Assembly: GCA_947446815.1 (NCBI GenBank)
Contig: CANFGT010000001.1
Span: forward strand, 1 to 64,000
Direction of reading: 5' to 3'
From: Acidimicrobiaceae bacterium
GTDB taxonomy: Bacteria > Actinomycetota > Acidimicrobiia > Acidimicrobiales > Ilumatobacteraceae
Length of the DNA: 64,000 nucleotides
The translations under genes were made by a program, and so were the position numbers. Position 1 is the first letter of the stretch. Each line of letters opens with the position of its first letter. This document shows positions 3-63,285 of this stretch, one piece after another. The notes below the pieces were generated by a model. The model saw nothing but the letters and a program-made list of their open reading frames with translations. It searched no databases and was not told the origin of the DNA.

Positions 3-908
3 CTCGGTGATGATGGCGTGCGCATTTTGAAAAGTGTTGCTGTCACGAGCGGTATTCGTGATGCAGGTTCCGATGTGCAAGCAGGTGCCACTGTGTTTGA
101 ACCTGGCGTTGTTGTCACGCCAATGGTCGAAGGTGTTCTCAGCAGCATCAACGCACTGAAGGTGGCCGTGTATTGGAAGCCACGTATTGGTGTCATCTCC
201 ACCGGTGATGAATTAGTGGATGACGGCTCTCCGTTGCAGAAGGGTCAGATTCGCGAATCGAATCGCAAGATGTTGTTGCGACTGGTGGAAGAGGCGGGCG
301 CTGAAGCAATCGACCTTGGCATCATTCGCGACAACGAAGAAGATCTTGAGGACACGTTACGTAAGGCAACAAGTCGCGGCATGGTCGATGCGCTCATCTC
401 TAGTGGTGGCGTGAGCATGGGCGACTACGACGTGGTGAAAGCGGTGCTGGGTCGTATCGCAGAGATGCATTGGTTCCAGATTGCAATGAAGCCGGCGAAG
501 CCCTTTGCATTTGGCACGATGCCTGGCGTTGGTGGCAGCTCTGTTCCGATTTTTGGTTTGCCAGGGAACCCTGTGAGTTCGCTGATGAGTTTTGAACTCA
601 TTGCACGCCCGGCGATTCGCACAATGATGGGAGTCGCGCAACCATTCCGACCACGCATCGCAGCGATCGTTGATGAAGACGTGAAGCGCGGAGTGGACGG
701 CAAGACGCACTTCGACCGAGTACATGCGTATTGGAATACCGATGGGCGAGTGCACGTGCGCCGCACCGGCCCTCAGGGCAGTCATCAATTGGCATCCACT
801 GCGGTCGCAAACGCCATCATGGCTGTTCCCGATGGAACAGGTGTGAGCGCCGGCGACGAAGTGACCGTCACTTTCCTGGGCCCAGACGCTGGCCCTGTTG
901 CTGGATAA
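3..908 (+). CDS. moeA: Molybdopterin molybdenumtransferase MoeA / gephyrin-like protein (5' end outside the window)
   Basis: The reading frame is open to the window edge, so the N-terminus is missing. MoeA inserts molybdate into adenylylated molybdopterin, the last step of Mo-cofactor synthesis in the cytoplasm. The visible part holds the central MoCF-binding domain with ISTGDEL, SSGGVSMGDYD and FGLPGNPVSS motifs, followed by the C-terminal beta domain (domain IV). It starts a cluster with moaA and moaC. In corynebacteria a MoeA homologue (Glp) instead binds FtsZ and a membrane partner, GlpR. A GlpR-like gene lies 2.5 kb downstream, so a cell-division role is possible. Family assignment is firm; the division role is inference. 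Confidence 0.93.
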   Translation, partial: LGDDGVRILKSVAVTSGIRDAGSDVQAGATVFEPGVVVTPMVEGVLSSINALKVAVYWKPRIGVISTGDELVDDGSPLQKGQIRESNRKMLLRLVEEAGAEAIDLGIIRDNEEDLEDTLRKATSRGMVDALISSGGVSMGDYDVVKAVLGRIAEMHWFQIAMKPAKPFAFGTMPGVGGSSVPIFGLPGNPVSSLMSFELIARPAIRTMMGVAQPFRPRIAAIVDEDVKRGVDGKTHFDRVHAYWNTDGRVHVRRTGPQGSHQLASTAVANAIMAVPDGTGVSAGDEVTVTFLGPDAGPVAG

Positions 909-950: not shown

Positions 951-1949
951 GTGGACCTCATTGACCAGCACGGACGCACTGTGCGCGACCTGCGTATTTC
1001 GGTCACGGACCGCTGCAACTTCCGTTGCACGTATTGCATGCCCGCAGAGGGAATGACGTGGCTGGACCGGTCCGAAGTCCTCACATTCGAAGAGATTGAG
1101 CGTGTCTCTCGCATCTGTGTCGAACGTTTTGGTATCGATAGTTTGCGACTCACTGGTGGAGAGCCCACTGTGCGCGCGCATTTGCCACGCCTCATCACAC
1201 AACTTGCAGCTCTTCGCTTGGCCGATGGCTCCAAGCCGGATATCGCTCTCACTACGAACGGTGCAACGTTGCGCAACATCGCCGGCGAACTGCGCGATGC
1301 AGGTCTTGACCGCATCAACGTGAGCCTTGACAGTTTGAAGCCTGAACGGTTCCTTGCGATGACGCGCCGCGATGAACTTGCCAATGTTCTCGCGGGTATT
1401 GCTGAAGCGAAAGAAGCGGGCTTTGATCTCATCAAAGTGAATGCCGTTGTTGAACGCGGTGCGAACGATGATGAAGTTCTCGACATGGCTCGCTACGGAC
1501 GTGAAAACGACATCGAAGTGCGCTTCATCGAGTTCATGCCACTCGATGCATCGAATATCTGGGAGCGCAACAAGGTTGTGACCCAAGATGAAATCGTTGC
1601 TGCGATTTCTGCAGAGTTCCCACTGGAAATCATGCCCGCACGTGGCGCTGCTCCTGCAGACCGTTGGCGTTATCTCGATGGCAAGGGAACCGTTGGTGTC
1701 ATCCCAAGTGTCTCGAAGCCTTTCTGTGCCGACTGTGATCGCGTGCGCCTCACGAGTGATGGCCAGTTCCGCACATGTCTTTTTGCTACGGATGAATTCG
1801 ATCTTCGCGCACTGTTGCGCAATGGTGCAACAGATGACGAGATTGCACAACTGATCATCGATGCTGTGGGCACTAAGTGGGCCGGTCACCAGATCAATCA
1901 GGTGAACTTCATTCGTCCGAACCGTTCCATGAGTCAGATTGGTGGTTGA
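951..1949 (+). CDS. moaA: GTP 3',8-cyclase MoaA (radical SAM)
   Basis: MoaA converts GTP to 3',8-cyclo-GTP, the first step of molybdopterin synthesis. The radical-SAM cluster motif CX3CX2C is seen at C22, C26 and C29, followed by the SAM-binding LTGGEP segment. The second, C-terminal [4Fe-4S] cluster is given by CADC and a third Cys 14 residues later in the FRTCLF segment. The protein is 332 aa, normal for the family, and starts with GTG. The C-terminus ends in Gly-Gly (SQIGG), the tail whose peptide activates MoaA. It follows moeA by 42 nt and is 2 nt from the next gene, consistent with an operon. Confidence 0.96.
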   Translation: MDLIDQHGRTVRDLRISVTDRCNFRCTYCMPAEGMTWLDRSEVLTFEEIERVSRICVERFGIDSLRLTGGEPTVRAHLPRLITQLAALRLADGSKPDIALTTNGATLRNIAGELRDAGLDRINVSLDSLKPERFLAMTRRDELANVLAGIAEAKEAGFDLIKVNAVVERGANDDEVLDMARYGRENDIEVRFIEFMPLDASNIWERNKVVTQDEIVAAISAEFPLEIMPARGAAPADRWRYLDGKGTVGVIPSVSKPFCADCDRVRLTSDGQFRTCLFATDEFDLRALLRNGATDDEIAQLIIDAVGTKWAGHQINQVNFIRPNRSMSQIGG

Positions 1950-55297: not shown

Positions 55298-55780
55298 ATG
55301 TCAGACGAGAAAATTCACCCCAATGTGGCAAAAGTGACAGATGCCGCCCGTGCGGCCGGCTTTGAGATTGAGGTGAAGAAATTTCCCGAAGGAACGAAGA
55401 CCGCACAAGATGCAGCAACGGCCATTGGTGTTTCAGTAGGGCAGATCGTGAAGAGCCTTGTCTTTGGTGTTGATGATGAAATCGTGATGGCATTGGTGAG
55501 CGGCTCCAACCAATTGGACGAGAAGAAACTTGCTGCGGCGGCCGGTGGGGCGAAGTGTAAGCGCGTTGATGCTGATGCAGTGCGTGAGGCGACGGGCTTT
55601 CCGATTGGCGGCGTGCCTCCCTTTGGTCACAGCACACAACTGCGCGTGTTCGTGGACCCGGACTTGTTGCAGTACGACGAAGTGTGGGCTGCTGCGGGAA
55701 CGTGGAACGACAACTTCGGTGCTGCACCGGCCGACATCGTGCGTGTTGCTGGTGGAGTAGTCACCGACCTGAAACGGTGA
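55298..55780 (+). CDS. ybaK: YbaK/ProX family aminoacyl-tRNA deacylase
   Basis: A 160-aa trans-editing domain that hydrolyses mischarged tRNA (Cys-tRNAPro or Ala-tRNAPro in relatives). It shows QIVKSLVFGVDD with the catalytic Lys, SGSNQLDEKKL and the GFPIGGVPPFGH loop. Its 3' 170 nt recur as fragments at 59.13 and 60.47 kb, see there. It may be a chimera of a resident 5' part and an incoming 3' part. Confidence 0.92.
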   Translation: MSDEKIHPNVAKVTDAARAAGFEIEVKKFPEGTKTAQDAATAIGVSVGQIVKSLVFGVDDEIVMALVSGSNQLDEKKLAAAAGGAKCKRVDADAVREATGFPIGGVPPFGHSTQLRVFVDPDLLQYDEVWAAAGTWNDNFGAAPADIVRVAGGVVTDLKR

Positions 55781-55823: not shown

Positions 55824-56498
55824 GTGACACCAAGAGGTAATCCAGTTCCCGACACACTGTTCGTATTCATTGACGAGTCAGGAAATTTCGATTTCTCAGA
55901 AAAGGGAACAGACCATTTTGTGATGGCCGGGGTAGCCGCCCTAGCGCCTCTTGATTCTGCTGCTGAAATGCAAGCTCTTCGCTACCAACTGTTGGCGGAA
56001 GGAAATGATATCTCAAGTTTTCATGCGGCCGAAGATCGACAGTTCATTCGAGACCGTGTCTTTCAAACATTTGAGTCAATCAAAAATGTGAAGGCTCACG
56101 CAATCTATGGCGACAAACACCGTGCCGCACCGCGATTGCAGTCAGATTCTCAAATTCATGCTCTCTTTGGCCAGGGATTGGTTAGGTATTTCCTACGCGT
56201 CTTTGATTCGTCCGACTACAAGAGAGTTGTAGTTGTGTTTGATCAGGCATTGACCAAGAAGAAGCAAGGCGATTTTCATGGGGTTATCAAGCCCGAATTG
56301 AAAGCTTTGCGGAAACCGTTTCGCATATATTTTCAAAAGATGGTTACTGACATGAACGGTCAAATTGCTGATTACGTTGCTTGGTCAAAGTTCGTTCAAT
56401 TGGAGAGAAGCGAACTTCGACCTTGGAGGAGTCTGACTTCTACGTTGCAACCAAGTGATTTCAACATCTTCCGAGATGGAAGAACGATCTACTACTGA
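55824..56498 (+). CDS. DUF3800 domain protein
   Basis: A 224-aa protein of the DUF3800 family. Typical are the N-terminal FVFIDESGNFDFS (residues 13-25), the Asp-containing VVVVFDQAL and the C-terminal DYVAWSKFVQLE. The acidic residues fit a predicted RNase-H-like nuclease fold; activity is unknown. It starts with GTG 7 nt after TATTGT and without a ribosome site, so the mRNA may be leaderless. A structured RNA on the opposite strand ends 16 nt from its stop. The base composition appears richer in A/T than in neighbouring genes. Confidence 0.85.
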   Translation: MTPRGNPVPDTLFVFIDESGNFDFSEKGTDHFVMAGVAALAPLDSAAEMQALRYQLLAEGNDISSFHAAEDRQFIRDRVFQTFESIKNVKAHAIYGDKHRAAPRLQSDSQIHALFGQGLVRYFLRVFDSSDYKRVVVVFDQALTKKKQGDFHGVIKPELKALRKPFRIYFQKMVTDMNGQIADYVAWSKFVQLERSELRPWRSLTSTLQPSDFNIFRDGRTIYY

Positions 56499-56513
56499 AG
56501 GCTAGAAATGCGA

Positions 56514-56567
56514 CCGCCCCGACTAGCTGTTTCCAGCAGAGCCCAGAGGCTCTTATCGTCGGGGCGG
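56514..56567 (-). ncRNA. Compact three-stem structured RNA next to DUF3800
   Basis: A perfect 10-bp outer stem (CCGCCCCGAC/GTCGGGGCGG) encloses two hairpins: AGAGCC/GGCTCT with loop TCTG and GCTG/CAGC with a GAAA tetraloop, read on the minus strand. The GNRA loop appears only in the minus orientation, which sets the strand. A near-consensus promoter (TTGAAT, 17 nt, TATCAT) lies at 56609-56581 and would start transcription about 7 nt before the outer stem. This fits the family of DUF3800-associated structured RNAs predicted by comparative genomics; function unknown. Confidence 0.75.
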
Positions 56568-56580
56568 AACCTTTGCACAA

Positions 56581-56609
56581 ATGATACACAGCGGGTGTGC
56601 AGCATTCAA
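56581..56609 (-). promoter_or_regulatory. Sigma-70-type promoter of the DUF3800-linked RNA
   Basis: Minus strand -35 TTGAAT (56609-56604) and -10 TATCAT (56586-56581) with a 17-nt spacer. The expected start is near 56574, 7 nt before the outer stem. Confidence 0.6.
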
Positions 56610-56670: not shown

Positions 56671-56788
56671 GTGATGGAAGAAACGAGTCCCCACCACCGC
56701 AACGACGGCTTCGACGCTTTGATTGATGAGATCAGGGTGAAGTTGCTGCCGGCACTTGTGGCCAAGTGGGGAATCGAGGTCGGAAGCG
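56671..56788 (+). pseudogene. Possible gene remnant in the DUF3800 to repeat-protein gap
   Basis: The plus-strand frame begins MMEETSPHHRND and reads on with a plausible helical segment (GFDALIDEIRVKLLPALVAK), then runs into the antisense of the repeat-protein gene. It may be the start of a truncated gene. No homologue recognised; the rest of 56610-56788 holds nothing evident. Confidence 0.25.
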
Positions 56789-59038: not shown

Positions 59039-59133
59039 CTTTTTCATTAGCAAATGTCAAAAGTTCATAAGCCACGGGCTGCGGTGATGACAGAATTGTC
59101 AGAAGTTGAAAATGAAAGAGTTGCCTAAACCAA

Positions 59134-59204
59134 TGGCGGCGTGCCTCCCTTTGGTCACAGCACATAGTTGCGCGTTGCTGGTGGTGTGGTCACCGACCCG
59201 AAAC
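59134..59204 (+). pseudogene. ybaK 3'-end fragment with internal deletion
   Basis: The segment repeats ybaK 55607 onward (GGCGGCGTGCCTCCC, then TTTGGTCACAGCACA) and then jumps from the TGCGCGT area to the GTTGCTGGTGG area, dropping about 100 nt. It keeps the direction of the intact gene. It is preceded by GAGTTGCCTAAACCAAT, also found (one base different or so) before the fragment at 60.47 kb. Confidence 0.85.
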
Positions 59205-60470: not shown

Positions 60471-60644
60471 GGCGTGCCTCCCTTTGGTCACACAACTCAA
60501 CTGCGTGTGTTCGTCGATCCGGACTTGTTGCAGTACGACGAAGTGTGGGCTGCGGCGGGAACGTGGAACGACAACTTCGGTGCGAACCCGAATGACATCG
60601 TGCGTGTTGCTGGTGGCGTCTTTACTGACCTGAAGCGCTCGTGA
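60471..60644 (+). pseudogene. ybaK 3'-end fragment (about 57 codons, open frame)
   Basis: An open segment GVPPFGHTTQLRVFVD onward to DLKRS and a TGA. By eye about 20 mismatches in 170 nt from the intact ybaK, mostly synonymous, so it comes from a related gene that was under selection rather than from a fresh copy. No 5' part is present. It is preceded by GGGTTGCATAAACCAAT, like the fragment at 59.13 kb. Confidence 0.9.
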
Positions 60645-63090: not shown

Positions 63091-63200
63091 GACATCAGAG
63101 GCCCGGATGTTTGCGCAATGCGCCTCATCCCCTTGCGGGTAGCACCGTGGCCGGGTGGCTCGGTTGCTGGGTCTCCATGGGGGAGACCTCTCTTGATGTC
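63091..63200 (-). promoter_or_regulatory. SAM-I/SAM-IV-like riboswitch candidate
   Basis: On the minus strand a 10-bp P1 with one bulged A (GACATCA..GAG with CTCTGATGTC) closes a junction with P2 (GGTCTCC/GGAGACC), P3 holding GCAACC and CGGTGCTA, and P4 with a GCAA tetraloop followed by GATGAGG. CAAGAG, GCAACC, GGTGCTA and GATGAG are the boxes of the S-box/SAM-I clan; the short P2 without kink-turn fits the SAM-I/IV variant. The 3' strand CCTCT can also pair with the ribosome site AGAGG. Gene below: the zinc-ribbon protein. Confidence 0.65.
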
Positions 63201-63285
63201 GTTGTCACCGTAACGCACGGGTGGGTCACGGTTGGAGAAATATCTAATGTGGTCTGTGTCGTAATGGACGGACGGGAGAAAATTC

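Follow-up and report, generated by a model that had tools for sequence, protein, structure and literature searches.

A conserved, strand-specific RNA structure was shown, by comparison of sequences, to travel with one clade of DUF3800 genes across bacterial phyla and mobile elements. In the window, that is, the whole stretch of 64,000 nt of Acidimicrobiaceae DNA that was analysed, a DUF3800 gene with a GTG start (nt 55824–56498, plus strand), encoding 224 aa and a predicted RNase-HII-fold nuclease according to a Pfam match, an AlphaFold2 model and a 19-protein alignment, faced a structured RNA at nt 56511–56575 on the minus strand. As judged from sequence, it is very nearly certain that the DUF3800 gene and the RNA form a pair. 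RNA motifs linked to DUF3800 were reportedly named by Weinberg and colleagues in 2017, and to our knowledge they have remained orphan motifs with no role assigned since then. The locus adds to them an RNA class whose position and strand are fixed and whose promoters recur, together with a partner of predicted nuclease fold and, in several loci, defence-like neighbours, and it turns an orphan motif into a simple question, namely whether the RNA binds and silences, or arms, a nuclease.

Structure, strand and promoter of the RNA

Two covariance models were used, R1 built from five loci (the window, L009, L010, L011 and L012) and R2 built from 20 R1 matches. The window RNA scored 91 bits with R1 and 84.4 bits with R2, both models including the window sequence; its 5′-end was predicted near nt 56574–56575, and its 3′-end was located 12 nt from the DUF3800 stop codon, the RNA being convergent to the gene. 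RNAs of this class would be about 65–75 nt long. As the initial annotation had described, a 54-nt element with a perfect 10-bp closing stem and two inner hairpins was present. It covers nt 56514–56567 and starts 15 nt past the stop codon, and the RNA folded as a three-way junction consisting of this closing helix and the two hairpins. On the minus strand, the conserved single-stranded 5′ leader CAAAGGTT (nt 56568–56575) was followed by the 5′ arm of helix 1, CCGCCCCGAC (nt 56558–56567), which pairs with the 3′ arm GTCGGGGCGG (nt 56514–56523). Between the two arms were junction J1/2, GATA (nt 56554–56557), the helix 2 hairpin AGAGCC-tctg-GGCTCT (nt 56538–56553), the helix 3 hairpin GCTG-gaaa-CAGC (nt 56526–56537) and junction J3/1, TA (nt 56524–56525). 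Helices 1 and 2 were assigned from fold and covariation, helix 3 from fold and alignment, and the leader and junctions from alignment; the two A positions of J1/2 and the whole of J3/1 were invariant in 20 of 20 RNAs. The GNRA-type GAAA loop pointed out earlier was indeed present in the window, on the minus strand only, but is not a conserved feature: the helix 3 loop varied in sequence and length among the 20 aligned RNAs, and a GAAA loop was for that reason discarded as a signature of the class.

The alignment, A3, comprised 20 RNA sequences that were fitted to the R1 structure and thus lean towards it. Standard pairs were formed in 97.9% of its 386 cells. Covariation in homologous loci, which had been put forward as a check on the element, was strong, 14 of 20 pairs being altered on both sides; the covariation score was 0.504, compared with 0.200 in shuffles, none of the 500 reaching it, and with a maximum of 0.117 in slid-partner controls. 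When RNAalifold was rerun on A3, 20 pairs were returned in identical columns. The leader had the form AAAsGU, with AAA and GU retained in 17 of 18 RNAs, and strongly variable unpaired positions were confined, in the 20 RNAs, to the hairpin loops, mainly that of helix 3.

The 54-nt element had a folding energy of -36.5 kcal/mol (z -4.9) when read as the minus strand and of -35.2 kcal/mol (z -6.4) when read as the plus strand, and in neither case did any of 200 shuffles reach the same stability; stability alone therefore cannot tell which is the RNA strand. Three signs identified the minus strand. First, 378 of the 386 alignment cells formed standard pairs on the RNA (minus) strand versus 356 on the opposite strand, a difference due to G-U pairs. 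Second, 10 of 24 loci had a U-run (at least 5 T in 6 nt, within 22 nt past the stem) on the RNA strand, and no locus had one on the DUF3800 strand. Third, promoters were located upstream of the RNA. In the window, a -35 element, TTGAAT (nt 56604–56609, minus strand), and a -10 element, TATCAT (nt 56581–56586, minus strand), were separated by a 17-nt spacer, and this candidate promoter (nt 56609–56581), proposed initially to drive the element, was sigma70-like, with a score that no shuffle of the 60 nt before the RNA, out of 200, equalled. By a sigma70 matrix, with a wider search range allowed in four loci, promoters before the RNA outscored at least 95% of shuffles in 13 of 23 loci and were unremarkable (more than 20% of shuffles as good) in eight.

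In the window RNA itself only 4 of 6 nt after the stem were T; the U-run after the stem in some relatives suggests that these have an intrinsic terminator of their own near the DUF3800 stop codon. A plain intrinsic terminator of DUF3800 was rejected as a candidate on the count of 0 of 24 loci with a U-run on the DUF3800 strand. The possibility raised earlier that the hairpin is only a terminator ran against two results, the invariance of the junction bases and the restriction of U-runs to the RNA strand. More broadly, an element that only controls expression, as a terminator or as a convergent antisense transcript limiting the DUF3800 mRNA, would agree with the convergent position at the stop codon and with the RNA-strand U-run past the closing stem in 10 of 24 loci. 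This explanation is nevertheless improbable, given the lack of U-runs on the DUF3800 strand, the invariant or nearly invariant junction and leader bases, the covariation of all three helices and the small overlap with the gene, the gap between RNA and DUF3800 end ranging from -16 to +68 nt when the frameshifted L010 is left out.

Occurrence of the RNA and limits of the clade

The DUF3800 protein was found in five of 221 genomes of the window's family, one copy being at a contig end and one frameshifted, and in two of 397 genomes drawn from the order, the window's own included. The first four relatives with downstream sequence (L009, L010, L011 and L012), actinobacterial assemblies including an Acidimicrobiaceae and a Nanopelagicales, all carried the element just past the gene with 73–94% identity by blastn. 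Protein searches matched 3 phage and 3 plasmid records, of which one phage and two plasmids were examined: R1 scored 68.7 bits on Gordonia phage Kenna, where the RNA overlaps the DUF3800 stop codon by 3 nt, 54.9 bits on a plasmid of Phaeobacter encoding a DUF3800 protein 29% identical to that of the window, and 44.6 bits on a Ruegeria megaplasmid. Further protein searches for DUF3800 relatives gave no new records. For the viral contigs, a first protein scan found no DUF3800 relative and an alignment-based scan found 17; on the contigs of the viral collection found in this way by protein alignment, R1 matches were located at the same place. A pattern scan for the RNA core across the viral contigs had given no match, as the pattern suited only the nearest relatives, and the covariance model later found the RNA there. 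A whole-genome search with R1 revealed the RNA beside DUF3800 in two more actinobacterial lineages (L039 and L040).

Altogether, the RNA was at the expected place and on the expected strand in 25 of 25 distinct clade loci with downstream sequence, comprising the five from which R1 was built, the two found through the RNA (L039 and L040) and 18 found through the protein, independently of the model. The candidate RNA-protein pair of the initial annotation was thereby upheld, the RNA being convergent at the stop codon in all 18 model-independent loci (15 clear, 3 weak). R1 gave E < 0.001 in 22 of the 25; weak matches were those in L017 (R1 E 0.29, R2 E 0.0024), L074 (R1 E 0.52, R2 E 0.02) and L072 (R1 E 0.064, not reported by R2). 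The count of 25 excluded L067 and L079, where the contig ends before the RNA, L016, where it ends within the gene, the duplicates L003–L008, L013–L015, L020–L023 and L089–L091, and DUF3800 genes of other clades (the second DUF3800 of L039, and L092–L100); L064 was counted once with L018, and L081 and L082 once with L068 and L070. With other clades included, RNA of the window's class accompanied 25 of the 35 DUF3800 loci seen. The carriers were a Gordonia phage, Rhodobacterales plasmids, viral contigs and actinobacterial genomes; by these sequence matches, the RNA class occurs in two bacterial phyla as well as on phages and plasmids.

A profile search of 396 genomes of the phylum detected DUF3800 in 12, with the window's RNA class in three of the 12 and absent from the other nine loci (L092–L100). 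DUF3800-V was convergent beside the DUF3800 end in L095, L096, L098 and L099, i.e. in four of the 11 phylum loci scanned with Rfam, and no Rfam family was assigned beside the gene in L092, L093, L094 and L097. The genes of L092 and L093 were free of internal stops yet had no assigned RNA, and that of L100 was broken. Within the window's clade, every DUF3800 gene observed with sequence beyond its end was accompanied by the RNA.

The RNA was also met where an intact DUF3800 gene is missing. Five R1 matches of at least 33 bits were obtained in the phylum, three adjoining DUF3800 and two not. The RNA of L041 (nt 227–289, minus strand) had a well-paired stem, with no DUF3800 in the preceding 226 nt; that of L042 (nt 1501–1564, minus strand; R1 33.8 bits, R2 44.2 bits) had an imperfect stem, with no DUF3800 in the 3-kb locus. 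By eye, a HicB-like ORF and an integrase-like ORF flanked the latter. In these two matches the element stands without DUF3800, a point against the two-part module favoured below. Broken DUF3800 genes were found in L010, L077, L085, L086, L098 and L100; the RNA was retained beside the frameshifted gene of L010, as were RNAs of Rfam types at L085, L086 and L098. The remaining matches were weak, 15 of 19 in the family (at most 31.7 bits) and 18 of 23 rows in the phylum (at most 25.2 bits). No DUF3800 ORF of at least 80 aa was detected by the DUF3800 profile in L024–L038 or L041–L059, and the weak matches were on that ground taken as chance; the one in L024 sits within a long ORF.

The DUF3800 protein and possible roles of the RNA

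The window protein matched Pfam PF12686 over residues 13–188 with 44 bits, above the cut-off of 21, and was basic (pI 9.0), not acidic as initially described. Its AlphaFold2 model, computed from the 19-protein alignment, had a mean pLDDT of 90.1; RNase HII (1eke_B) was the only PDB match to the model below E 0.001 (E 3.1e-6, TM 0.57), and a sequence-level search of PDB chains gave no good match, the best E being 0.47. The protein is thus predicted, from its modelled structure, to be a nuclease of the RNase HII fold. Among the 19 aligned relatives, with identities to the window protein as low as 20%, D17, E18, H67, K98, Q180 and D183 were invariant (19 of 19). The acidic residue D140 was replaced by A in six of 19, making catalysis uncertain in part of the clade. 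The DE pair (D17 and E18), at the end of strand 1, is reminiscent of the DE.G motif of RNase HII. The PADLOC model DUF3800_VII, which represents the effector of type VII retrons, was the nearest defence model for the clade; it matched seven of the eight proteins given, the window protein weakly (E 5e-6). The one left unmatched was the second DUF3800 of L039, for which two candidate-defence models gave matches.

No DUF3800 family of Rfam was detected at the gathering threshold in the whole window, nor at E ≤10 in 501 nt of it, so that the check with these models suggested earlier gave no match for the window RNA. Likewise, no DUF3800 family matched at E ≤1 over the RNA of the window's class in L018, L019, L039, L040 and L041, none was detected at the gathering threshold in 17 viral loci, and none over the RNA in L090 and L091; L009–L012, L017 and L083 were left out of the Rfam scans. 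The relation to DUF3800 RNA motifs proposed initially nevertheless held in kind. DUF3800-IX (RF02968), compared by eye, has the same architecture as the window RNA, with a long closing stem, a three-way junction, a 4-nt J1/2 starting GA, a 2-nt J3/1 UA, and hairpins of 7 bp and 5 bp. It differs in that its Rfam model misses the window RNA and the scanned relatives and does not include the leader AAAsGU, and in that its partner in L039 belongs to a DUF3800 subfamily other than the window's. Although the junction is alike, the window RNA was not filed as a member of DUF3800-IX, since the model does not match. Similarly, DUF3800-V (RF02964) is convergent and adjoins the DUF3800 end, but differs in sequence and has a longer model (96 positions). 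In the DUF3800 full-text passages seen, from a search with most subscription journals outside it, no description of the window's RNA class was met. We read the window RNA as a new class of an already known kind of DUF3800 RNA, missed by the Rfam models where they were scanned.

In L039 the second DUF3800 gene (ORF nt 2136–2753) had a convergent DUF3800-IX RNA at nt 2761–2831, 4 nt past its stop codon. In L094 and L097, DUF3800 was followed by an opposite-strand, junction-like fold ending in a U-run, with no Rfam family at cut-off; these folds are perhaps more unnamed DUF3800 RNA classes. These observations suggest that many DUF3800 genes have an RNA convergent to them, the RNA class being specific to a clade of the protein.

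The reading we tentatively favour is that of a two-part module, made of the RNase-HII-fold DUF3800 protein and a small RNA transcribed towards the gene from its own promoter. The protein would bind the three-way-junction RNA, which is the simplest account of an RNA that keeps its fold and its junction bases, has recurring promoters and stays with one clade across phyla. In the least certain steps, the RNA may hold the nuclease inactive as long as the cell is healthy, with release upon infection or when the module is lost, as in abortive infection by RNA antitoxins. Restraint of the nuclease by the RNA, by analogy with such antitoxins, is plausible though short of probable. It is favoured by the toxin or abortive-infection setting and by RNAs that outlast broken or missing DUF3800 genes, the reverse never being seen in the clade. 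This asymmetry of loss is a weak sign, as an RNA of 65 nt offers mutation only a tenth of the target that the gene does, frameshifts in assemblies can be errors, and in the wider family L092 and L093 have their genes without an assigned RNA.

RNA-antitoxin loci have as hallmarks tandem repeats upstream of the toxin and in the same operon, and the absence of these at the DUF3800 pair argues against restraint. In type III toxin-antitoxin systems (ToxIN), a nuclease is likewise combined with a small structured RNA, and the pair described here is also found on mobile DNA. ToxI is made of repeats and lies upstream of the toxin. The pair was not assigned to the type III layout of upstream tandem repeats in an operon, the RNA being a single unit, convergent, downstream and with its own promoter.

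The main rival to restraint, and a rather unlikely one, is that the RNA is a positive cofactor which, like crRNA or omega RNA, would give structure, sensing or specificity to a ribonucleoprotein effector. The predicted RNase-H-type fold, the invariant junction bases and the conserved 5′ leader agree with it, as does the link of DUF3800 to Cas12a2 as well as to loci of types VI-F and V-A2 in published work (PMC10910872, PMC12669027), whose authors also point to DUF3800-linked ncRNAs and describe for another DUF3800 domain an AlphaFold2-predicted RNase H fold with catalytic rearrangement. The accessory proteins of V-A2 and VI-F loci share the domain of the window protein and are described as having the RNase H fold; the window DUF3800 differs in adjoining its own RNA, and no CRISPR gene was noticed there in an analysis aimed at the pair itself. 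Against a cofactor, the RNA has no long variable single-stranded guide segment, its strongly variable unpaired positions being the hairpin loops, and 10 of 24 loci have a U-run behind the stem, close to the stop codon, so that a guide copied from the adjacent DNA would not be expected in these. The helix 3 loop, up to 13 alignment columns, is the sole candidate for a variable guide segment. A guide RNA of the OMEGA or CRISPR-like type, one of the options offered by the initial annotation, is accordingly disfavoured, no variable unpaired segment besides hairpin loops being present in 20 RNAs. A cofactor or a sensor would account just as well for the conserved bases of the leader and junctions.

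If restraint holds, the module would be a broadly distributed RNA-controlled toxin, carried also by phages and plasmids. Extension of this reading to DUF3800 in general, as RNase-HII-like nucleases each with a convergent structured RNA as dedicated inhibitor, is possible but doubtful; were it true, DUF3800 would represent a large abortive-infection class with many RNA types (the window's, DUF3800-V, DUF3800-IX and those of L094 and L097), its modules inserted in type I restriction loci, prophage immunity regions and gene-cassette arrays.

Genomic setting

In L068 and L069, two contigs of the viral collection, the pair was located inside the hsdS-hsdR interval of type I restriction genes, preceded there by an extra gene that had no Pfam family in L068 and was an NYN-domain gene in L069. 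It came after AAA_15 and Mrr_cat genes in L070, overlapped the end of a tyrosine integrase gene in L071 and that of an HTH_3 gene in L065, and in L066 overlapped a gene in the matching position, which was not family-scanned, the Pfam scan of neighbours having covered five viral-collection loci. In Gordonia phage Kenna, the pair overlapped the annotated immunity repressor gene. Such positions, in a restriction interval or at an integrase or repressor gene, are typical of defence genes. The defence or mobile setting proposed initially was thus found in several loci, with restriction genes, repressors and integrases, and the neighbours in several loci point to, without proving, a role in phage defence.

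Directly upstream of the DUF3800 gene in the window was a ybaK-like aminoacyl-tRNA editing gene (nt 55298–55780, plus strand), and the gene array around the locus has the 3′-end of this gene as its repeat. The module stood 47–59 nt behind a copy of the ybaK-like 3′-end in the window, L013 and L014, and in L011 it came after a full-length ybaK-like gene. The last 167 bp of the gene recurred as direct repeats at nt 55610–55776 and 60471–60637 (88%) of the window, with a partial copy at nt 59115–59204; seven copies 0.5–5 kb apart were present in L014 and three in L013. The sequence GTTGCCTAAACCAA, with at most one change, preceded nine of 11 displaced copies. The units between the repeats were small and, by eye, GNAT-, PhzF-, VOC- and HicBA-like, and a MerR-YCII-like trio was common to the window and L014 in different order. 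With the units judged by eye, the whole may be regarded as an integron-like cassette array in which the repeat is the 3′-end of a gene. The 167-bp repeat occurred in 21 of 32 genomes of the genus, in nine of them with 2–5 copies; DUF3800 was seen in two, and the junction pattern of the array in six of the 32. The window's own genome (91% complete) encoded two tyrosine recombinases, XerC/D-like by eye.

The mobile settings, the predicted nuclease fold and the cassette-like array behind the ybaK 3′-end are what would be expected if DUF3800 belonged to a selfish mobile element and had the RNA or its DNA as substrate, the fold marking one end. That explanation is highly improbable in view of the promoters and RNA-strand U-runs that recur across loci, the array repeats, which are another sequence and mostly occur in genomes of the genus not showing DUF3800, and the lack of a second copy of the element flanking the gene. 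A repeated or transposon-end element was rejected as a candidate since the window's own genome has one copy of the element, the sole other match there being of 17 nt (E 1.34).

Beyond the RNA, the start of a gene was observed at nt 56671–56788 (plus strand), the L013 counterpart of which is a 176-aa ORF resembling, by eye, an ECF sigma factor. Similarity of the window to L010 stopped at nt 56788, beside a DUF5122 gene. A SAM-I/IV riboswitch was detected at nt 63097–63204 on the minus strand of the window, scoring 57.1 bits against a cut-off of 41.1.
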